Positions 189-19,014 of a stretch of 64,000 bases of DNA are shown piece by piece (positions within the stretch are counted from its first letter, which is position 1; each line of letters starts with the position of its first letter). A program made the position numbers and the translations under genes. The DNA lies in IMG/VR virus record IMGVR_UViG_3300043410_001024, positions 1 through 64,000 of that record; one strand, written 5' to 3'. A model generated the notes under the pieces. It searched no databases and was not told the DNA's origin. It worked only from the letters and a program-made list of their open reading frames with translations. The DNA comes from a virus.

Positions 189-325
189 CAAAATTGCCCT
201 GTAAGCCCTGCAGGTGGTGCAATGGCATTGCTTTTTTGCTTTCGTGGCGTGGTGGTGGCTTAAAACGCAAATTCTAAATGCCAGCACGTTTTTAAAATTA
301 TTTTCATTTTTTTTCGTTTTGAGTA

Positions 326-386
326 TTGACACGGGCGAAAATGTCTGTAAAATACGCAGTCAGTGGGGGGCAATTTCGCCCCCCAC
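326..386 (+). promoter_or_regulatory. Promoter-hairpin cassette 1
   Basis: -35 TTGACA (326-331), 16-nt spacer, -10 TAAAAT (348-353). A 9-bp perfect hairpin follows at the expected start of the RNA (363-386; arms GTGGGGGGC and GCCCCCCAC, loop AATTTC). A GGAG Shine-Dalgarno then leads into the gene at 406. Three more copies of this arrangement follow downstream, so the cassette is clearly a functional unit. Confidence 0.85.
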
Positions 387-405
387 ATCAAACGGAGCAA
401 AAACA

Positions 406-663
406 ATGGCTAAATTATCAGATTCTTACACCACGCTCGTGCCAGCGAATATCGCTGGAATACCTTGCTTATTGGGCATTGACGATTTTTATCGTCAACC
501 CGCTGATTTTGGAGCGTGTAACCGTGATGATTTTTTTGGATACGTGGAACTTGAATTCACTGTAATGGATCGAAAAGGCTATAAAGCTGATTGGCTAGTT
601 AAAAAAATCACGCCAGTAATTGATCGTGAATTAGAAAAAACAGTTTTAGAATATTTCGCCTAA
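406..663 (+). CDS. Small early protein of unknown function, 85 aa
   Basis: I do not recognise this protein. The start is the ATG at 406, 9 nt after GGAG. The same frame is open further upstream, but that stretch runs through the promoter and leader hairpin and is not credible. The product is soluble-looking, begins MAKLSDSYTTLVPANIAG and ends in an acidic/basic helix (VIDRELEKTVLEYFA). It is the first of four short genes on this strand, each with its own cassette promoter, an arrangement typical of phage early host-takeover genes. No domain or catalytic motif is visible. Confidence 0.75.
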   Translation: MAKLSDSYTTLVPANIAGIPCLLGIDDFYRQPADFGACNRDDFFGYVELEFTVMDRKGYKADWLVKKITPVIDRELEKTVLEYFA

Positions 664-668
664 AAGAG

Positions 669-729
669 TTGACAAGGCAAAACAAGTCTGTATAATAGGC
701 AATCAGTGGGGGGCAATTTCGCCCCCCAC
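669..729 (+). promoter_or_regulatory. Promoter-hairpin cassette 2
   Basis: -35 TTGACA (669-674), 16-nt spacer, perfect -10 TATAAT (691-696), then the same 9-bp GC hairpin at 706-729 in the leader. It starts only a few bases after the previous stop codon, so each gene appears to be its own transcription unit. Confidence 0.88.
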
Positions 730-749
730 ATCAAACAGGGGCAAAGAAA

Positions 750-968
750 ATGAAAGCAAAAAAAGTGGTAGAAAAAGCAATCAAACTAGGTTTAATCCGT
801 TATAATGACGGTGAGTCATTTTCACCGTTTTATGGTGCGGCACGTCATGACGTGTGGTTTTCATGCGGTGCGGGCGTGAATAAAACCATTGACGCTAATG
901 ACGTTGAACAATATACAGGGCTAAAAATCGTGTCAATCAATGGCGATAGCATCGAAAAATTAGTTTAA
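750..968 (+). CDS. Small early protein of unknown function, 72 aa
   Basis: Starts at ATG 750 behind a GGGG/AAAG purine tract. The N-terminus MKAKKVVEKAIKLGLI is a basic helix and the rest is a compact mixed fold ending in VSINGDSIEKLV. The first five codons are nearly identical to those of the next gene (MKAK start), so duplication or cassette swapping may have carried the start region as well as the promoter. No family recognised. Real-gene confidence comes from its dedicated promoter, leader hairpin and tight packing. Confidence 0.75.
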   Translation: MKAKKVVEKAIKLGLIRYNDGESFSPFYGAARHDVWFSCGAGVNKTIDANDVEQYTGLKIVSINGDSIEKLV

Positions 969-974
969 AAACGG

Positions 975-1035
975 TTGACAAGGCAAAACAAGTCTGTATA
1001 ATACTCAATCAGTGGGGGGCAATTTCGCCCCCCAC
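975..1035 (+). promoter_or_regulatory. Promoter-hairpin cassette 3
   Basis: -35 TTGACA (975-980), 16-nt spacer, -10 TATAAT (997-1002), GC hairpin 1012-1035. The promoter is almost identical base for base to cassette 2 (shared spacer AGGCAAAACAAGTCTG). Confidence 0.88.
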
Positions 1036-1052
1036 ATCAAACGGAGCATAAA

Positions 1053-1358
1053 ATGAAAGCAAAAAGATTTTTTAATGGCAGTGACAGCTACGGGCGAAAT
1101 GTTCAAGTGGCGCAAGGCGTTGACGGTTCATGGTTTTATCGTATGTATGTATTCAACGGGTACGCCCGTGCATGGTCAAAATGGGATCAATTAGATACCG
1201 ATAAACATATATCATGGGCGCATGAATCAACCAACGTCTACAGCGGTGAAGTTACACCGCTAGAAAACCCCGTGTTAATGTGGGGGTTTAATTCATTACA
1301 TGAATACGCGGATGTTCCGCGCGTAAGATTGCCAGAAAAAAAAGAGTTGACAGTATAA
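1053..1358 (+). CDS. Small early protein of unknown function, 101 aa
   Basis: Starts at ATG 1053, preceded by GGAG. It begins MKAKRFFNGSDSYGRNV and is rich in aromatic residues (several Trp and Tyr in the middle third), suggesting a small beta-rich fold. No membrane segment or known catalytic motif is seen. Its last codons overlap the -35/-10 region of cassette 4, so the next promoter is embedded in this gene's 3' end. Unrecognised; likely an early host-interaction protein by position. Confidence 0.75.
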   Translation: MKAKRFFNGSDSYGRNVQVAQGVDGSWFYRMYVFNGYARAWSKWDQLDTDKHISWAHESTNVYSGEVTPLENPVLMWGFNSLHEYADVPRVRLPEKKELTV

Positions 1359-1407
1359 AATAATCCTGTAAAATACGCAGTCAGTGGGGGGCAATTTCGC
1401 CCCCCAC
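1347..1407 (+). promoter_or_regulatory. Promoter-hairpin cassette 4
   Basis: -35 TTGACA (1347-1352), 16-nt spacer, -10 TAAAAT (1369-1374), GC hairpin 1384-1407. The -35 lies inside the coding end of the preceding gene. The -10 region TGTAAAATACGCAGTCAG matches cassette 1 rather than 2 and 3. Confidence 0.85.
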
Positions 1408-1425
1408 ATCAAACGGAGCATAAAA

Positions 1426-1953
1426 ATGAACAAACCAGATTTTTTAAACGTAATGGCATCAACAAAAGGCGCGGCTATCGCGTCAATGGTAACTGATACA
1501 GCGGTAGGTGGAGTTGCCGCTAAATATAAAGCAATGGCAATCCGTAAAGTAACTACAGCATCAATTATGCTTTTCAACGGGTTGAAGGATGCTGATCCGT
1601 ACCTAAACAAAATCGCTAAAACCAGTGACAGCGATAATGCTACCGATTTTGAAAAAAGCGAAACCTTCTTTGAGCATTCACATGAATGTTATAGTTTAGT
1701 AAGCCATAAAAAAACAGGCAAGTTATATTTGTACGCGCTTTATAATAGCGCAAAATCAACGTATTACATCGACGGCAAAGAAGTTACCCGTGATGAAGTA
1801 GCCATTTTCTTGACACCTTCAGCGGCTAAAACCTTAATGGATGATAGCGGCAGGGTATATAATCTTAAAAATGACGTTTATCATTCAGCTATCATTAGAA
1901 CGATTAGCCTTGAAAATGTCGTTAAATTGACCGCCAACGGTCAAACGATATAG
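1426..1953 (+). CDS. Early protein of unknown function, 175 aa
   Basis: The start is ATG 1426, after GGAG; an in-frame GTG at 1384 would lie in the leader hairpin and is rejected. Residues 1-45 are alanine-rich and could form amphipathic helices (TKGAAIASMVTD, AVGGVAAKYKAMAIRK). The C-terminal half looks like a small beta-rich domain (YSLVSHKKTGKLYLYALY, STYYIDGKEVTRDEVAIF) ending in ISLENVVKLTANGQTI. No catalytic motif recognised. It is the last and longest of the four cassette-driven genes and is followed by a strong terminator at 2018-2043. Confidence 0.75.
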   Translation: MNKPDFLNVMASTKGAAIASMVTDTAVGGVAAKYKAMAIRKVTTASIMLFNGLKDADPYLNKIAKTSDSDNATDFEKSETFFEHSHECYSLVSHKKTGKLYLYALYNSAKSTYYIDGKEVTRDEVAIFLTPSAAKTLMDDSGRVYNLKNDVYHSAIIRTISLENVVKLTANGQTI

Positions 1954-2202: not shown

Positions 2203-2603
2203 TTTTGTTGCGGCGGACAAAAATTCTTTCAAAAAACTCCCTGATTTTTCCAAAAATTTCCACAAAAATTTCCACAAAAATTTCTCCAACTTTTCTCCCA
2301 ACTTTTCTCCAACTTTTCAAAAACTTTCCTAAAAACTTGCCTCAAAAAAGGTCGATATATAGAAAAACAGGTCGATCAAAGTGTAAGTACCTTCTTCTAA
2401 TTTTTTGCGCGGCTCAGGTTTTCACACTGTGTAGGAAAAGTGGGTCCAAAGTGTAAGTACCTTGTTGAAATTTTTGGGCGGGAAAAATTTTGCGCTCCGG
2501 TATAGAAAAAGTAGGCTAAATATGAAAGGGCACTAGAGAGAGTAAGGTACCATAATTGATGGTGTTTTACTCTAGTGAGTGTAGAGATATTAAAGGACTT
2601 TTG
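2203..2603. other. Non-coding, repeat-rich region (possible control region or origin)
   Basis: No convincing gene. 2249-2325 is a pyrimidine-biased microrepeat tract (AAAATTTCCAC-like and AACTTTTCTCC-like units, each about three times). The 17-mer CAAAGTGTAAGTACCTT occurs twice, at 2377-2393 and 2447-2463. A CTAAATA box at 2516-2522 could be a late-type promoter for the kinase-like genes. Direct repeats in an AT-rich gap at an operon boundary are compatible with a replication origin or regulator-binding site; neither is shown. Confidence 0.5.
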
Positions 2604-3302
2604 ATGAGAATAGAAGAATTAAGTGGATATCGTGATAATGAGTACATGCAGGGTGCAAAGGATATATTTAAGCAGCGTCCGGCTGATAATCCTGCAACTG
2701 GCGATGATGACATAATAGGCAAGTTAGATCCTAACAAGAGTAGTTTGGAATATGCGCCATATTATCAGATGATGCAATTTAACAAGTTTTTGACTGCTAA
2801 GGGATTTCGGCAATTGGGTTCTGGGGCGTATGCTGGTGTGTGGGAGCATCCTAATCATCCGTGGGTATTTAAGGTATTCAAGAATGATGAGGCGTATATG
2901 ACTTATTATAAGTGGTGTCGTTCTCACCAGAATAACCCTAATGTTCCTAAGATTAAGGGTGGTGTGATTAAGATAAATGATGAGACTTATGCCATACGGA
3001 TGGAAAAATTATCTCCGATAGACAAGGATGTATACAATGATGTTGATCGTGCGGTTGGAGCATTTGAGTGGTATGTACGTGGTATAAAGAAGGGATGGGA
3101 CGAGGAGACTATGGAACGTGTACGAGCTGAGTTAGAAGAATATCGTGAGGCGTATCCTGGTATATATGAGATAATGGCGATGATATTTAAGAGTGGATAT
3201 CGATTAGATTTGCATTTTAACAACATCATGCAGCGTGGTGATATTCCGGTAATCACTGATCCGATAGTAGGAAGTGGTTGGGGAACTAAGGTGGAAATAT
3301 GA
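2604..3302 (+). CDS. Kinase-like protein A, 232 aa
   Basis: The start is ATG 2604, six nt after AAAGGA; an upstream in-frame ATG at 2556 lacks a ribosome binding site. It is one of three tandem paralogues that share the N-terminus M(K/R)(L/I)(R/K/E)EL(T/S)GY. Protein-kinase-like signatures appear in order: a glycine loop (GSGAYAGVWEHP), WVFKVFK in the position of the VAIK strand, a hinge-like MEKL, a catalytic-loop-like LDLHFNNIM and TDP in place of DFG. At 232 aa it is smaller than a standard kinase. Whether it phosphorylates protein, a small molecule or nothing cannot be told. Start and stop overlap the next gene (ATGA). Confidence 0.7.
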   Translation: MRIEELSGYRDNEYMQGAKDIFKQRPADNPATGDDDIIGKLDPNKSSLEYAPYYQMMQFNKFLTAKGFRQLGSGAYAGVWEHPNHPWVFKVFKNDEAYMTYYKWCRSHQNNPNVPKIKGGVIKINDETYAIRMEKLSPIDKDVYNDVDRAVGAFEWYVRGIKKGWDEETMERVRAELEEYREAYPGIYEIMAMIFKSGYRLDLHFNNIMQRGDIPVITDPIVGSGWGTKVEI

Positions 3303-3907
3303 AACTACGGGAATTGACTGGGTATCATAATACGCCTATCCAGGGGATTGTTGATAAGGCCAAGGATGAGTTTAGTGGTGGTAAGAAGACCAGATATGAT
3401 GCTGCGTTTAACAATTTCTATGAGTATATAAAGCAGCATGGATTTCATCGTGTTGGCACTGGTAACAATGCTGATGTATATGAGAAGGAAGGATATCCGT
3501 GGTTGTTTAAGGTGTTTAGTGGTGATCCTGCGTATATGTCGTATTACAAGTATTGTAGGGTTAACCAGGGTAATCCGCATGTTCCGCGTATTAAGGGTGG
3601 GTTGCGTAAGATATCTGGGAATACGTATTGTGTACAGATAGAGAAGTTAAATCCGTTGCCTGGAAGTGGTATGAAGTTTGTTGAGACGTTACAGAATGCT
3701 GCGTTAGGCTTGGTGGATGATGATCCGTTTGATGATGAGATGGCGGATGAATATCGGCGTAGTATTTCTCAGATTAGTACAAAGTTTCCTGAGTTGATGA
3801 AGTTACTGCGGGATTTGGTTGCGTTTAGGAATTACACATTTGATTTAGATGAGAGTAATGTGATGATGCGTGGTGTGATGCCTGTAATAACAGATCCATT
3901 TGCGTGA
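3299..3907 (+). CDS. Kinase-like protein B, 202 aa
   Basis: Begins in an ATGA overlap with gene A, implying coupled translation. It shares the GTGNNADVYEK glycine loop, WLFKVFSGDPAYMSYY, the PRIKGG strand and the IEKL hinge with its neighbours. The catalytic loop is degenerate: FDLDESNVMM has Asp where the other two copies have His after DL, and the glycine loop has NN for AY. TDP stands where DFG would be. It is the most divergent copy at the active site and may be a pseudokinase partner of A or C. Function unknown. Confidence 0.7.
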   Translation: MKLRELTGYHNTPIQGIVDKAKDEFSGGKKTRYDAAFNNFYEYIKQHGFHRVGTGNNADVYEKEGYPWLFKVFSGDPAYMSYYKYCRVNQGNPHVPRIKGGLRKISGNTYCVQIEKLNPLPGSGMKFVETLQNAALGLVDDDPFDDEMADEYRRSISQISTKFPELMKLLRDLVAFRNYTFDLDESNVMMRGVMPVITDPFA

Positions 3908-3917
3908 GGGGAAATAG

Positions 3918-4526
3918 ATGAAATTAAAAGAGTTAACTGGATACAAGGGTAATGCGCATTATCAGGCGGCTAAGAATACATTGGTTAGAGATAATCCGGA
4001 GGATGAGAATCGCAAGCAGTTTAACAAGTTTAAGGAGTATATGGTTGCGAATGGATTCGAGTATATGGGGACTGGTGCGTATGGGACTGTATATGAGAAG
4101 CCTGGGTATCCGTGGTTATTTAAGTTATTTAAGGAAGATCCTGCGTATATAGAGTTTATCCAGTATAGTAAGGCGCATGCTGACAATCCTCATTTACCGA
4201 AGTTTAAGGGTGGTATAATAAGAATCAATGCTGATACTTATTGTATCCGGACTGAGAAATTAGTTGATTTACCGTATGAGAATTATAGAAAGTATATGGA
4301 TTATTTTACTGCGGTGTTTGCGGTACTACAAAACCGGGTTGACAAGAATGATTCGATGTATGATGAGTTGTATCGTGAGTATCAGCAGTTTAGTCGTAAG
4401 CATCCGAACATATATGAGATATTGAAATACATATTTACGGAAAGTTCGTACCATCCTGATTTGCACAATGGGAATTTAATGATGCGAGGGAGTACGTTAG
4501 TGTTTAGTGATCCGGTAGCGATATAG
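3918..4526 (+). CDS. Kinase-like protein C, 202 aa
   Basis: Preceded by a strong GAGGGGAAATAG ribosome binding site. It is the most kinase-like copy: glycine loop GTGAYGTVYEKP, strand WLFKLFK, hinge TEKL, catalytic loop HPDLHNGNLMM (compare HxDLHxGN in aminoglycoside-phosphotransferase-type and ABC1-type kinases) and SDP for the metal-binding motif. The best reading is a minimal kinase-fold enzyme acting early in infection. The alternative is a kinase-fold binding protein without catalysis. The operon ends at the bidirectional terminator directly downstream. Confidence 0.72.
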   Translation: MKLKELTGYKGNAHYQAAKNTLVRDNPEDENRKQFNKFKEYMVANGFEYMGTGAYGTVYEKPGYPWLFKLFKEDPAYIEFIQYSKAHADNPHLPKFKGGIIRINADTYCIRTEKLVDLPYENYRKYMDYFTAVFAVLQNRVDKNDSMYDELYREYQQFSRKHPNIYEILKYIFTESSYHPDLHNGNLMMRGSTLVFSDPVAI

Positions 4527-5634: not shown

Positions 5635-5642
5635 TATTTATA
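5635..5642 (-). promoter_or_regulatory. Late-type promoter TATAAATA
   Basis: A perfect T4 late-promoter -10 box on the minus strand, overlapping the end of gp41. It ends only 5 nt before the ATG of the gene at 5629. If active, transcription starts at or next to the start codon. Confidence 0.5.
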
Positions 5643-7008
5643 TATTGTTCAACAGGTTTCTTAGTTTTGAGCTTTGGACTTCTGCGGTAACTTTTGGTTC
5701 TTCGATAGTGGATCTTTGTCTAATTGAGTTAAGAATAGCTGATCCTGCTGATTGCATAGGTTGGTTACCGAATTCATCATCAACGTCTGCGTCGGTGATT
5801 CTAAGTGAATCGATACAGAAAGATAAATCGATTTTTTGCCCTGTACCAGAACTATTACGAGTTTTCATAAGTTGAATTTGGTATTGTCCGCGTTCGCGCA
5901 TAGCTCTTGAGGTAAAGATACCGAATACGTTATCAGCTGTCATAATTTTAGAAAGACCGCCAGAGATATGGCTATGGTCGAATTCAACTTCTTCTACTGC
6001 GCCACGGTTTAGCTGAGATGCGGTGACTAATAAGCAATTCTTTTCTACTGCTAGGTTTCTAAGTTCTTCCGAGACGTACTTATCTTTGATGAAAAGGTCA
6101 GCTGGGCTGATTTTCTTCGAGAGTGGCATTAGCAAATCTAGGTAATCTACTAACAGTACATCAATTTTTCTATTAGTTTTTATTTCATATTCTTTTAAAT
6201 ATGATCTTACGTCATTGGCATTTTTGCCGGATGGCATATATTTGACTTGCAGTGACCCAGCTTTTTTACCGATGGTTTTAACTTTAAGTTCTACGTTATC
6301 GATTTGTTTAAAGATATCTCTGGATGGTATACCGGTAATCATGGAATCGATACGCATTGAGACTAGTTCTTCTGAGAGTTCTAGTGTAAGGTAAAGAACA
6401 TTAAGACCGGCTAGTGCCCAGTTAACGCCAAGATTTGCTAGGAATAGTGATTTACCTGCGCCAGAACCACCGGCAAAGATATTAAGTTCACCGCGATTCA
6501 TACCGCCGAAAAGTTTATCATCGACGTTTTTCCAGCCGGTTGATACTTGGCCATTTTTATCTTTGATTTTTGAAAGACGTTTTTTAGGGTCTTCGAAGTA
6601 ATCGGTACCCATATCTTTTTGTAGACCGACTTGGACTGCGCGTTTAATTTTATCTTCGACTGTACCGTATTCACCTTTTTCTAATAAATCGGCTGATTCG
6701 ATGATTGCGCGTTCTAGTCCTTTATGTCGGGTGAATGTTTCAAATTCGTTTAACAACCAATCAAAATTTTCTGCGCGTAAGTTAGCAGGTGGTGCAAAAT
6801 TAGCTTTGGTGGTTGCGTTTACGATTTCGAAGGTTGGGATTACATTATAGACATCAACATATTCTTTAATGAATTCTGCTGGTAATTGTAACTTTTTATC
6901 GAATAAAGTGTGGTCAAAAATTGATTGACATCTAACAAATGATTCTGGGTCCACTAGCATCATTTCTAGGTATAATTTTTGTACATCGAATCCATAATTT
7001 ACATTCAT
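5638..7008 (-). CDS. 41: Replicative DNA helicase, T4 gp41 (DnaB family)
   Basis: Hexameric 5'-3' helicase that unwinds the fork and works with the primase encoded upstream. At 456 aa it is close to T4 gp41 (475). It has a DnaB-type RecA fold: Walker A GGSGAGKS at residues 180-187, Walker B DVLLVDYLDLL near 280-290, and later helicase motifs (TASQLNRGAVE and MKTRNSSGTGQ near the C-terminal third). The N-terminal 150 residues are the helical primase-interaction domain. The start is ATG 7008, with GGAGG 7 nt upstream. It is the last replication gene of the leftward operon that includes primase and carbamoyltransferase. Confidence 0.93.
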   Translation of the reverse strand: MNVNYGFDVQKLYLEMMLVDPESFVRCQSIFDHTLFDKKLQLPAEFIKEYVDVYNVIPTFEIVNATTKANFAPPANLRAENFDWLLNEFETFTRHKGLERAIIESADLLEKGEYGTVEDKIKRAVQVGLQKDMGTDYFEDPKKRLSKIKDKNGQVSTGWKNVDDKLFGGMNRGELNIFAGGSGAGKSLFLANLGVNWALAGLNVLYLTLELSEELVSMRIDSMITGIPSRDIFKQIDNVELKVKTIGKKAGSLQVKYMPSGKNANDVRSYLKEYEIKTNRKIDVLLVDYLDLLMPLSKKISPADLFIKDKYVSEELRNLAVEKNCLLVTASQLNRGAVEEVEFDHSHISGGLSKIMTADNVFGIFTSRAMRERGQYQIQLMKTRNSSGTGQKIDLSFCIDSLRITDADVDDEFGNQPMQSAGSAILNSIRQRSTIEEPKVTAEVQSSKLRNLLNNI

Positions 7009-7034
7009 ATAAGCCCTCCGTGGCTGTTATTACT

Positions 7035-8480
7035 TTAATTAAAAACTTTTACATTATAAGTATTTTCAAATACTTTAGAATCTCCTATGGTATTAACCAT
7101 TGGATGACCCTTAATATTCAGACTAGTATTGAGAAGCATTGGGCATCCGGTTTTAGAATACCACTCTTCCAATAGAGTTCTTACTTGTGGGTCGGCATTT
7201 TTTCCAACAGTTTGCACACGGCTGGTTCCATCAGCATGTACTATTCCTGGGAATTTATCTGGATATTTGCAAGTGGCGGTATATTGCATATATCGATTAT
7301 CGGTACTGATAAGGTCGAAATGTTCTGACGCGTGTTCCTCCAACACCATTGGTGCAAATGGACGAAATGCTTGTCTATCTTTAATTGTATTAACCCTATC
7401 TTTGATATTTGGTACACGCGGGTCAGCGATTAAGCTTCTGTTACCTAATGCGCGGGGTCCAAATTCTGCTTTACCTCTTGCTATACCACAAACTTGATTA
7501 GCGATAAGATATTCCACTATTTCTGCATTAGTGGAATGATACCCGATATCATATCCAATATATGGGTTAAACCGTATTCTATTTTTGGTATGTGCTAGCA
7601 CTGTTCCGATTGCGCTTCCTGCATCACCAGGATTTGGCATAATCCAAACATTATTAAAATATTTGTAAGCCAGTGGGTTGGCACTACAATTCAATGCGCA
7701 TCCACCCATGAATACTAAATTATCACTTGGAACTAGTTTTTTTGCCAGCTCTAGTGCATCTTTGAACATTCTATTATACACTAATTGTGTTCCAGATGCA
7801 ATATCAAAATAATCAGATACAGTTAAGTCTGGTGCCCAATCTAAGCAGCCACGGTGTAAATTCCGTCTAAACTTAAAATTATCAGCAACAAAATCGTCAT
7901 AGATGCGCTGTTCAAGTTTATTACCACCGTATGCTGCCATCCCCATTAAGATATATTCATCTTCGTTTGGTTTCAACCCAACTCGTTGAGTCATTGCGCT
8001 ATAAAACAGACCAATGCTATTGGGATAATTTTGAGACCATATTTTTTTTAATTTGTTTCCAGTACCATGCCAGATTGTCATGGTTTCAAATTCACCAATT
8101 GCGTCTATCACTAATATACAAGCATCAGCAAAGCTACTGGTATAATAGCCTGCAGCGGCGTGGCTATGATGATGTGCGGTATATGTAATTGGTACATTTA
8201 GATGATAAGTGGATAGATATTTTTTGATATTATTATCATCAAATTTTAATCCTTGCCCAGCTACTAGTTGTCTAATTGATTTAAGTAATGGGCGTTCATA
8301 CCAGTATATTTTTGATGGGTTTCCAAACTTAGATGCATAATTTATTAATTCATCACAAAGATTGGCATCATTTTTAATGCCGCTAAATCTTTCACTATGA
8401 CTAGCAAAAATCAAATTGTTGTTATCAAATACAGCAAGTGCGGCATCATGGCTATTTGCACTAATTCCCCATGTTATCAT
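7035..8480 (-). CDS. NodU/CmcH/TobZ-family O-carbamoyltransferase
   Basis: Transfers a carbamoyl group from carbamoyl phosphate, through carbamoyl-AMP, to a hydroxyl. The Kae1-like ATPase domain is clear: GISANSHDAALAV at residues 5-17, HHHSHA at 103-108 with metal-binding histidines, VIDAIGEFET and GMAAYGG. The C-terminal carbamoyltransferase domain has EFGPRALGNRSLIADPR and LLNTSLNIKGHPMV. At 481 aa it is shorter than many bacterial members (about 550-600). Family members in phages have been linked to DNA base modification (5-hydroxymethylcytosine to 5-carbamoyloxymethylcytosine). Placement between primase and gp41 fits a DNA substrate, but the substrate is inferred. Translation starts in an ATGA overlap with a 37-aa ORF and has no own Shine-Dalgarno. 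Confidence 0.92.
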   Translation of the reverse strand: MITWGISANSHDAALAVFDNNNLIFASHSERFSGIKNDANLCDELINYASKFGNPSKIYWYERPLLKSIRQLVAGQGLKFDDNNIKKYLSTYHLNVPITYTAHHHSHAAAGYYTSSFADACILVIDAIGEFETMTIWHGTGNKLKKIWSQNYPNSIGLFYSAMTQRVGLKPNEDEYILMGMAAYGGNKLEQRIYDDFVADNFKFRRNLHRGCLDWAPDLTVSDYFDIASGTQLVYNRMFKDALELAKKLVPSDNLVFMGGCALNCSANPLAYKYFNNVWIMPNPGDAGSAIGTVLAHTKNRIRFNPYIGYDIGYHSTNAEIVEYLIANQVCGIARGKAEFGPRALGNRSLIADPRVPNIKDRVNTIKDRQAFRPFAPMVLEEHASEHFDLISTDNRYMQYTATCKYPDKFPGIVHADGTSRVQTVGKNADPQVRTLLEEWYSKTGCPMLLNTSLNIKGHPMVNTIGDSKVFENTYNVKVFN

Positions 8481-8590
8481 TTGTAAATAAATGGGTCACG
8501 TTTGCGCATTTCTTCTATACGTTTTTTTAATTCTTGTTTTTCTTTATACCATTGAAATGGATGGAGTAAAATATATATAAATGTTCTCAT
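8477..8590 (-). CDS. 37-aa conserved-looking small protein coupled to primase and carbamoyltransferase
   Basis: A short ORF with AAGGA 6 nt before its ATG. Its start overlaps the primase stop (ATGA at 8587-8590) and its stop overlaps the carbamoyltransferase start (ATGA at 8477-8480). Both junctions are classic translational-coupling overlaps, strong evidence that it is translated. It begins with a hydrophobic/aromatic stretch (MRTFIYILLHPFQWY), then a charged helix (KEKQELKKRIEEMRKR) and ends DPFIYK. It could be a peripheral membrane anchor, a tiny adaptor for the carbamoyltransferase, or a coupling ORF that delivers ribosomes to a gene lacking its own binding site. No family identified. Confidence 0.75.
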   Translation of the reverse strand: MRTFIYILLHPFQWYKEKQELKKRIEEMRKRDPFIYK

Positions 8591-9561
8591 GTTGTTTCCT
8601 TAAACCATTGTTTTGCCCGAACCGCAATTGCGGCGGTTCCTGATTTTTTTGCTGTTACAATTAGCCATAATGTTGCCAATCTTCCTAATTGTACAACGGC
8701 ATCATTGATATCTTTAATACCAGGTGGATAATCTGGCATTGATACTGACCAACCATATTCCAACGCTTTACTTACTAGTTTTTCACCAGCGGCATCACGG
8801 TCGGGTACTAGAACGATTTCTTTTCGTAATTGTTTTAGTAGAATATCTTGTTGATCTTTAATTTCTGAACCTAGTAATGCACAGCCGCTAATACTAATTG
8901 CGTCGATTGGACCTTCGCATACAATTACAAAAGTTCGATTATCGGTTTGTGCATCTAGGTTAAACACATAACCCGGTTGTTGTTCTGCGAGATATCTAGT
9001 TTTATCATTATTAACTGCCCTAGCGGTATATCCTACAATTTTTCCTTTGTAATAATACGGCATAATAAGACGATTATTAAATCCTGTTCGTGGGGTCCAG
9101 TAAAAATTATAATCTTCTAAGAACAAGTTTCGGGTGTTCATATACTCTAAAACTGGGAATAATTCTTCTGGTACATCATTAATAAAGTCTAAAATTGGTT
9201 TTGCATCTAACGGTAACGCACGAGCATCGAATCGTGGGATTGATGGGATGGTGGTGGTATCCGAATGTTCGTGTAAGTATTTGATAGCGGCAAAAACTAA
9301 TTTAGTTACTAGATCGTCTGGGACATTAAGGTGTCGTAAAAATGCTTTCATATTTTTACTAAGTTGGCGACCTGGCTGCCAACTACACTTGAATCCACAA
9401 TTAAAGCAATGGTATGAAATTGCGTCGCCTTCATTTACAATGAACCCACCGCGTTGGCGAGTATCATTGCAACATACGGCATTGAAAGAAACCCAGCCAC
9501 TTGGAGTGGTTTTCCGTTTGGCTGGGAGATATAATTGAATGGTATCTGTGATTAAGTTCAT
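8587..9561 (-). CDS. 61: DNA primase, T4 gp61
   Basis: Makes RNA primers for lagging-strand synthesis together with gp41. At 324 aa it is close to T4 gp61 (342). The N-terminal zinc-ribbon region has cysteines at 30, 31, 52, 55 and 59 (VCCND, HCFNCGFKC). The Toprim catalytic core is visible as CEGPIDAISISG (the Glu of motif 1) and VLVPDRDAAGEKL (the DxD). The start at ATG 9561 has no Shine-Dalgarno. A consensus promoter -10 box lies 6 nt upstream, so the mRNA may be leaderless. The gene heads a coupled operon with the 37-aa ORF and the carbamoyltransferase. Confidence 0.9.
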   Translation of the reverse strand: MNLITDTIQLYLPAKRKTTPSGWVSFNAVCCNDTRQRGGFIVNEGDAISYHCFNCGFKCSWQPGRQLSKNMKAFLRHLNVPDDLVTKLVFAAIKYLHEHSDTTTIPSIPRFDARALPLDAKPILDFINDVPEELFPVLEYMNTRNLFLEDYNFYWTPRTGFNNRLIMPYYYKGKIVGYTARAVNNDKTRYLAEQQPGYVFNLDAQTDNRTFVIVCEGPIDAISISGCALLGSEIKDQQDILLKQLRKEIVLVPDRDAAGEKLVSKALEYGWSVSMPDYPPGIKDINDAVVQLGRLATLWLIVTAKKSGTAAIAVRAKQWFKETT

Positions 9562-9567
9562 TATGCT

Positions 9568-9596
9568 ATTATACTATAGCACAATAATTTTGTCAA
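9568..9596 (-). promoter_or_regulatory. Consensus sigma-70 promoter for primase
   Basis: -35 TTGACA (9591-9596), 17-nt spacer, -10 TATAAT (9568-9573), all on the minus strand. The distance from the -10 box to the ATG is only 6 nt. The promoter sits at the end of the upstream structural gene. Confidence 0.9.
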
Positions 9597-11129: not shown

Positions 11130-11702
11130 TTAAAGCAATGATTCGGTGATAAGATTCATTTGTACTATCACCGCAACTGCGTAAGAAATTGCGTGTGATT
11201 TTTTAAAATAATATTCACCTGTGGTTGGCGGCACCCATACCTCGTTCATCACCGTGGTCCAATCTTTCCCAATCAGATAGCGTTTCGCGGGGCGTATCAT
11301 TGCTAGGACTGCAGCTAATTGTTCCACCGAAGTCGGCAATGTTTGTTTCAGAATATCGGTATGCCCGTTCAAATGAAATAGTAGATTCACAAACTCTTCG
11401 TTTACTAAAAGTTCCCATATGGGCTCAGTCTCCATCAGTTTAAGTAAATGGTCGTTATCCTTAACGCCATTATATACGTGGACATTTAAGAAGTCAATTT
11501 TAAAATATCCACGTGATTCTGCTTCTTTGTAATCAATTGTGCTTAAATTTGTAATAGGATTATGTGGTATTTGTTGTACATATATTCCAGAGTTATGTGC
11601 AACTAAGTTTGTTTCGGTGGTGCGCGAGGCAATAATGTGTGGTAAGAAGTCCAATGCGGCTTTTCTGTCATAAAAATCAATATCGATATCAGGTGTTTTC
11701 AT
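11130..11702 (-). CDS. Miniature DnaE-like (DNA polymerase III alpha palm) protein, 190 aa
   Basis: Short segments match bacterial Pol III alpha in the same order. PDIDIDF at residues 4-10 (DnaE PDFDVDF) carries the first two catalytic Asp. NSGIYV corresponds to the HAGGVVI segment. FKIDFLNV (DnaE VKFDFLGL) has the third catalytic Asp. LLFHLNGHTDILKQ then resembles AVFQLESRGMKDLIK, and LAAVLAMIRPA resembles MIALVALFRPG. Near the C-terminus FKKSHAISYAVAV resembles FNKSHSAAYALVS. The PHP, fingers and tau-binding parts are absent; full DnaE is above 1100 aa. All three carboxylate positions are kept, so a metal-dependent role is possible, but independent polymerase activity is doubtful. It overlaps the upstream zinc-finger gene by 4 nt (ATGA). 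Confidence 0.72.
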   Translation of the reverse strand: MKTPDIDIDFYDRKAALDFLPHIIASRTTETNLVAHNSGIYVQQIPHNPITNLSTIDYKEAESRGYFKIDFLNVHVYNGVKDNDHLLKLMETEPIWELLVNEEFVNLLFHLNGHTDILKQTLPTSVEQLAAVLAMIRPAKRYLIGKDWTTVMNEVWVPPTTGEYYFKKSHAISYAVAVIVQMNLITESLL

Positions 11703-18985: not shown

Positions 18986-19014
18986 ATTATATCGCATACT
19001 AATCATCTTGTCAA
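18986..19014 (-). promoter_or_regulatory. gp32 promoter, proximal
   Basis: Perfect sigma-70 consensus on the minus strand: TTGACA (19009-19014), 17-nt spacer, TATAAT (18986-18991). It would start just upstream of the hairpin leader of gp32. Confidence 0.92.

Follow-up and report, generated by a model that had tools for sequence, protein, structure and literature searches.

Carbamoyltransferases are widespread in phages, where they are mostly classed as auxiliary metabolic genes whose target is not known. The window analyzed here (64,000 nucleotides, positions 1-64,000 of G000, a 99.7-kb IMG/VR virus contig that may be a fragment) carries such a gene inside a replication operon, where an open reading frame of only 37 amino acids separates it from the primase gene. 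The locus thus raises the question of whether this small ORF is a gene and, if so, whether its product serves the carbamoyltransferase (CT), the replisome or a DNA modification pathway. We report that it is a previously unannotated micropeptide gene found beside a sugar-type CT in hundreds of uncultured phages, and that it looks like a dedicated partner of the enzyme.

Operon layout and the carbamoyltransferase

The features of the operon are collected in Table 1, and the translation of the 37-aa ORF is MRTFIYILLHPFQWYKEKQELKKRIEEMRKRDPFIYK. A 4-nt ATGA overlap occurs at both the primase/peptide and the peptide/CT junction; ORFs and coordinates match the doubly ATGA-coupled primase-peptide-CT operon of the first-pass annotation. 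Operon neighbors in the window include UvsX-like, single-strand-binding and helicase genes. A 190-aa protein encoded at 11130-11702 (-) matches a short PHROG "DNA polymerase" family (phrog_11778) and is far below polymerase size.

Table 1. Features of the primase-peptide-CT operon in the window.
Feature	Position	Strand	Basis or remark
Predicted sigma-70 promoter TTGACA-N17-TATAAT, 12/12	9568-9596	-	-10 box ends 6 nt before primase ATG
Primase (TOPRIM), first operon gene	8587-9561	-	Pfam Toprim_2, phrog_47
Shine-Dalgarno-like AAGGA of peptide gene, within primase 3' end	8597-8601	-	6 nt upstream of peptide start
37-aa peptide gene: aromatic/hydrophobic N-terminus, basic helix, DPFIYK tail	8477-8590	-	ORF, conserved in relatives
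Constant C-terminal tag DPFIYK + stop	8477-8497	-	Motif conservation
O-carbamoyltransferase (CT), NodU/CmcH/TobZ family, Kae1-like + YrdC-like domains	7035-8480	-	PF02543/PF16861; PDB relatives
DnaB-type replicative helicase, gene after CT	5638-7008	-	Own ribosome site GGAGG at 7015-7019

By its domains, its motifs and the fold of a relative, the enzyme is a NodU/CmcH-family O-carbamoyltransferase like TobZ, NovN, GdmN and VtdB. The Kae1-like N-domain (PF02543) scores 129.8 bits against a Pfam cut-off of 24, and the YrdC-like C-domain (PF16861) scores 169 bits against a cut-off of 27. The HxxxH metal motif reads HHHSHAAAGYY, the GPRALGxRS carbamoyl/ATP motif reads AEFGPRALGNRS, and the key motif residues are invariant across relatives. 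The nearest solved relatives by sequence are NovN, GdmN, VtdB and TobZ (PDB), and a 59%-identical relative, a natural read-through fusion with its own peptide (AlphaFold pLDDT 88.7, pTM 0.82), gave full-length matches to the same four enzymes in a fold search. Unlike these enzymes, the CT described here is encoded by a phage, has 481 aa rather than ~570-700, and comes with a dedicated micropeptide; to our knowledge, no dedicated micropeptide is known for any of the four. Its best PHROG match is phrog_1601, which holds the Nol-like CTs of cyanophages and pelagiphages. Those in named phage records are 28-43% identical to it, and a number of them likewise lie in replication regions (S-SSM7, HTVC008M).

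Conservation of the peptide gene and its association with the CT

For a census free of the peptide, 80 viral contigs were collected by the CT protein alone, corresponding to ~29 distinct CTs at 80% identity and sharing, in most cases, the primase-CT-helicase synteny. Exactly one ORF ending in DP[FY][IL]Y[KR] was found in each of the 80. A second CT-only search, with the non-replisome CT of locus L117 as query, returned the tail motif in 74 of 80 loci, in one of them as the variant DPFTYR. Conservation beside the enzyme in other phages had been named beforehand as the test of the proposal, and with these two counts (80/80 and 74/80) we conclude that the 37-aa ORF is a real gene. CT-only searches of two further, more distant CT branches found the peptide in 2 of 77 and in 0 of 11 loci, respectively. 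Nor was a DPFIYK-type peptide present near the CT in the six Nol-like isolate loci examined (HTVC008M, P-SSM2, Mosig, S-CAM8, S-SSM7 and C48C1), unlike the arrangement described here, and an internal DPFIY motif was absent from the peptide-less CTs; a DPYIYEE form of the peptide exists in the single-cell virus AG-345-D19. On the CT tree, peptide presence requires 4 changes, compared with 13.4 when the labels are shuffled, although the CT-only counts are the cleaner evidence because part of the tree rows were picked by motif. Partnership of the peptide with one CT clade is well supported.

Of 24 large virus records, 23 match the motif pattern, about once each, and one holds two copies; the reversed pattern, used as a control, matched none of the 24. 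A conserved once-per-genome micropeptide that accompanies one CT branch offers a handle on how these enzymes are targeted and on what they modify. One 138.5-kb contig (L086 and L124) encodes two DPFIYK peptides ~8 kb apart, only one of them directly beside a CT, and also carries a second, distant CT. A scan of ~85,000 prokaryote genomes yielded only six convincing K-ending copies, four of them with a CT in the retrieved stretch; since these copies are so few, and all lie in metagenome-assembled contigs, the peptide-CT pair is essentially viral. The peptide has no significant Pfam or PHROG family, tblastn against a phage collection gave chance matches only, and DPFIYK was not found in the literature searched. 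The earlier suggestion of a previously unlisted small partner of the CT is thus borne out by a peptide that falls in no Pfam or PHROG family and is conserved with the enzyme.

When IMG/VR is searched from the opposite side, with nothing but the DPFIYK-stop motif, the association is again with the CT, which lies close by in 94 of 113 distinct loci among the matches listed. Most of the 60 loci found with the DPFIYE-stop motif likewise contain a CT, and in many the peptide gene is directly downstream of it. Where the CT was missing from the retrieved stretch of a motif locus (25 records), 15 records carry one elsewhere, including all those of at least 50 kb. Over all loci, the peptide gene precedes the CT in 201 cases, 109 of which have the exact -4 overlap, and follows it in 40; ORFs of DUF2061, DUF1289 or GIY-YIG-like type are inserted between the two genes in some loci, and the pair occurs without a primase in L037, L067 and the L117-like loci. 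The peptide follows the CT through differing genome neighborhoods and therefore looks like its dedicated partner. Small DUF2061-like membrane-protein or DUF1289 genes recur between peptide and CT in L031-L036, L060, L063, L077, L011 and L345.

A total of 238 distinct peptides of 30-50 residues were compared, most of them selected by motif, so that D, P and Y of the tail are invariant by selection; F is present in 232 and I in 234, and the final residue varies between K, E, R and H. A basic helix, (K/R)KKL(K/E)EL(R/K)KR, comes before the tail, and the constant C-terminal part has the consensus KRKKLKELRKRDPFIYK or the same ending in E. The N-terminal half is variable: window-clade peptides are aromatic/hydrophobic there, those of the L117 clade amphipathic and those of L247/L248 acidic. 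Ile of the tail is encoded almost equally by ATC, ATT and ATA (81/77/76) and Pro by all four of its codons, indicating that selection acts on the protein.

The short C-terminal tail recurs on a few other phage enzymes and proteins, a pattern that a modular docking tail would produce. Two of the proteins ending in it look SGNH-like, namely a DUF6071 protein (L215) and one encoded next to a CT (L264). In the phage AdoMet decarboxylase SpeD (PF02675; L217, L228 and L250) it forms a C-terminal ...KAKDPFIYE extension, and in L253 it closes an unknown 137-aa protein whose gene lies upstream of a CT.

Role of the peptide and the carbamoyl acceptor

Our results suggest, with somewhat better than even confidence, that the 37-aa peptide serves the CT as a dedicated small partner, with a constant tail that docks on the enzyme and a variable N-terminus that places it, the two being made by coupled translation. 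Translation would begin at the ribosome site of the peptide gene and, where the two genes overlap, reach the CT by termination-reinitiation; the tail would then most likely dock on the CT, and the N-terminus could hold the enzyme at the surface of a membrane or at another site. Physical binding, tail docking and N-terminal targeting are inferred, and in two natural read-through fusions of peptide and CT, AlphaFold models the tail with only moderate confidence (pLDDT ~60-80). The chemistry of the CT itself is predicted to be ordinary, with carbamoyl phosphate and ATP giving a carbamoyl adenylate that would be used for O-carbamoylation of a hydroxyl, and it should not need the peptide, because the related C48C1-like branch lacks one. 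C-domain residues 411-446 differ between the CT and this peptide-less branch and may form the tail interface. Counted against this proposal, besides the peptide-less branch and the moderate tail confidence, some of the tagged proteins (SpeD and the L215 protein) come from short contigs on which there is no CT, 20-30 kb in the case of SpeD.

HypF, a carbamoyltransferase, carbamoylates the C-terminus of HypE, and a peptide with a nearly invariant short C-terminus and a hydroxyl-bearing Tyr beside an O-carbamoyltransferase could by analogy be the substrate of the CT or a carbamoyl carrier, its tail (e.g., the invariant Tyr) being carbamoylated. Such a role, with which the occurrence of the constant tail on variable bodies, larger proteins included, is also consistent, we consider unlikely, since the enzymes closest in fold modify small molecules, the last residue of the tail varies and the replisome clade has no further conserved enzyme to make use of a carbamoylated peptide. 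HypE, moreover, is a large enzyme with a C-terminal Cys, unlike the 30-50-aa peptides here; in place of a HypE-type invariant C-terminal residue the tail ends in K, E, R or H, and the preceding Tyr remains a candidate site. The broader version, in which DPFIY[K/E] would be a tag for protein or carrier carbamoylation on the micropeptide or on tagged proteins (SGNH-like, SpeD), making a phage counterpart of HypF-HypE, is in our judgment doubtful to a slightly greater degree.

In the non-replisome loci, the neighbors of the peptide-CT pair are radical SAM/SPASM proteins, identified by Pfam, and genes named from sequence only as amidinotransferase-like, glycosyltransferase-like and SGNH-like, a company more easily reconciled with a sugar-like or small-molecule acceptor than with a base. 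We infer that the acceptor is probably a sugar-like hydroxyl, more so than a DNA base. Of these neighbors, the radical SAM/SPASM, amidinotransferase-like and glycosyltransferase-like genes recur as a cluster around the pair in the L117-like loci (L296-L375), together with an unnamed 360-aa family found in 47 of 61 loci.

It has been demonstrated via MetaGPA that a phage carbamoyltransferase acts on 5-hydroxymethylcytosine (5hmC), and that this enzyme is found together with a hydroxymethylase of the thymidylate-synthase type (PMC8670742). The first-pass annotation was correct in pointing to a link between phage CTs and carbamoyloxymethylcytosine, although the link concerns a different CT branch. 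The operon shared with primase and helicase would suit an enzyme making 5-carbamoyloxymethyl bases in phage DNA with the assistance of the peptide, as would I333 of the window CT, which matches the 5hmC enzyme at the position of TobZ W408. However, the window CT is only 26% identical to that enzyme, of the same family and likewise phage-borne, and its G346 and R348 are TobZ-like, the three diagnostic residues at TobZ W408/G421/R423 being I/G/R in the window CT, I/C/T in the 5hmC enzyme and W/G/R in TobZ. The hydroxymethylase companion was also not found: no PF00303 match and no dCMP or dUMP hydroxymethylase occurs in the 99.7-kb fragment G000 or in four replisome-type relatives (G001-G004, 155-266 kb), and the search that the first-pass annotation had called for gave no dCMP hydroxymethylase in 30 records, the PF00303 matches in four of them all being canonical thymidylate synthases with the asparagine (FNIASY). 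No Tet/JBP match was obtained, though the control for that search was also silent. Together with the peptide-CT pairs that lie away from replication operons and have radical SAM, amidinotransferase-like and SGNH-like genes nearby, these data make a DNA-modification role very unlikely, and we reject it as the main explanation given the absence of a hydroxymethylase, with only canonical thymidylate synthases, in the records searched. A carbamoyltransferase inside a replication operon need not imply modified DNA.

A still less credible possibility is that the peptide is a replisome factor that binds primase or helicase and merely adjoins the CT. It does lie directly after the primase in nearly all window-clade loci, even where ORFs intervene between peptide and CT, but in about half of the listed motif matches, and in the L117-like clade, the CT is present and no primase is nearby. 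The distribution of the peptide thus largely refutes this reading, as well as the earlier proposal that the peptide couples the CT to primase as such, since many phages have peptide and CT together without primase.

Expression signals and other features of the window

A Shine-Dalgarno-like motif is present at 46 of 83 peptide starts, the window included, and at none of 87 CT starts in loci with the -4 overlap, where the DPFIYK-stop codons occupy the position in which a CT ribosome site would lie. The CT start of the window has no such motif either. The CT was originally described as lacking its own ribosome site and as coupled to the peptide, and these counts agree; in view of the missing motif, translation of the CT probably depends on reinitiation after termination of the peptide. 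That the ORF does nothing else, being a leader without a functional product, is suggested by the double ATGA overlap and the lack of a CT ribosome site but is the least probable reading of all, and is rejected here, since the amino-acid motif is conserved despite synonymous variation in the tail codons and the peptide is kept when it lies downstream of, or far from, the CT.

Upstream of the operon, the best promoter site lies 5-8 nt before the primase ATG in all 50 distinct relatives, scoring at least 10/12 in 45 of them compared with 1 of 50 at random positions. With the -10 box so near the ATG, and its placement kept in relatives, the primase mRNA is predicted to be leaderless. Three more perfect promoter matches occur in the window, at 18986, 19070 and 33568 (-).

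Elsewhere in the window, three tandem paralogues at 2559-4526 (+) belong to the phrog_15752 protein kinase family, annotated as an inhibitor of host transcription, and are 36-39% identical to the first. A 125-nt direct repeat is present in four copies (62-100% identity) at 318-1463 (+), spaced by 306-372 nt among small ORFs, and a 26-nt unit, TTCGCCCCTGTTATCACGCTCCAGCG, occurs in three head-to-tail copies at 109-186.
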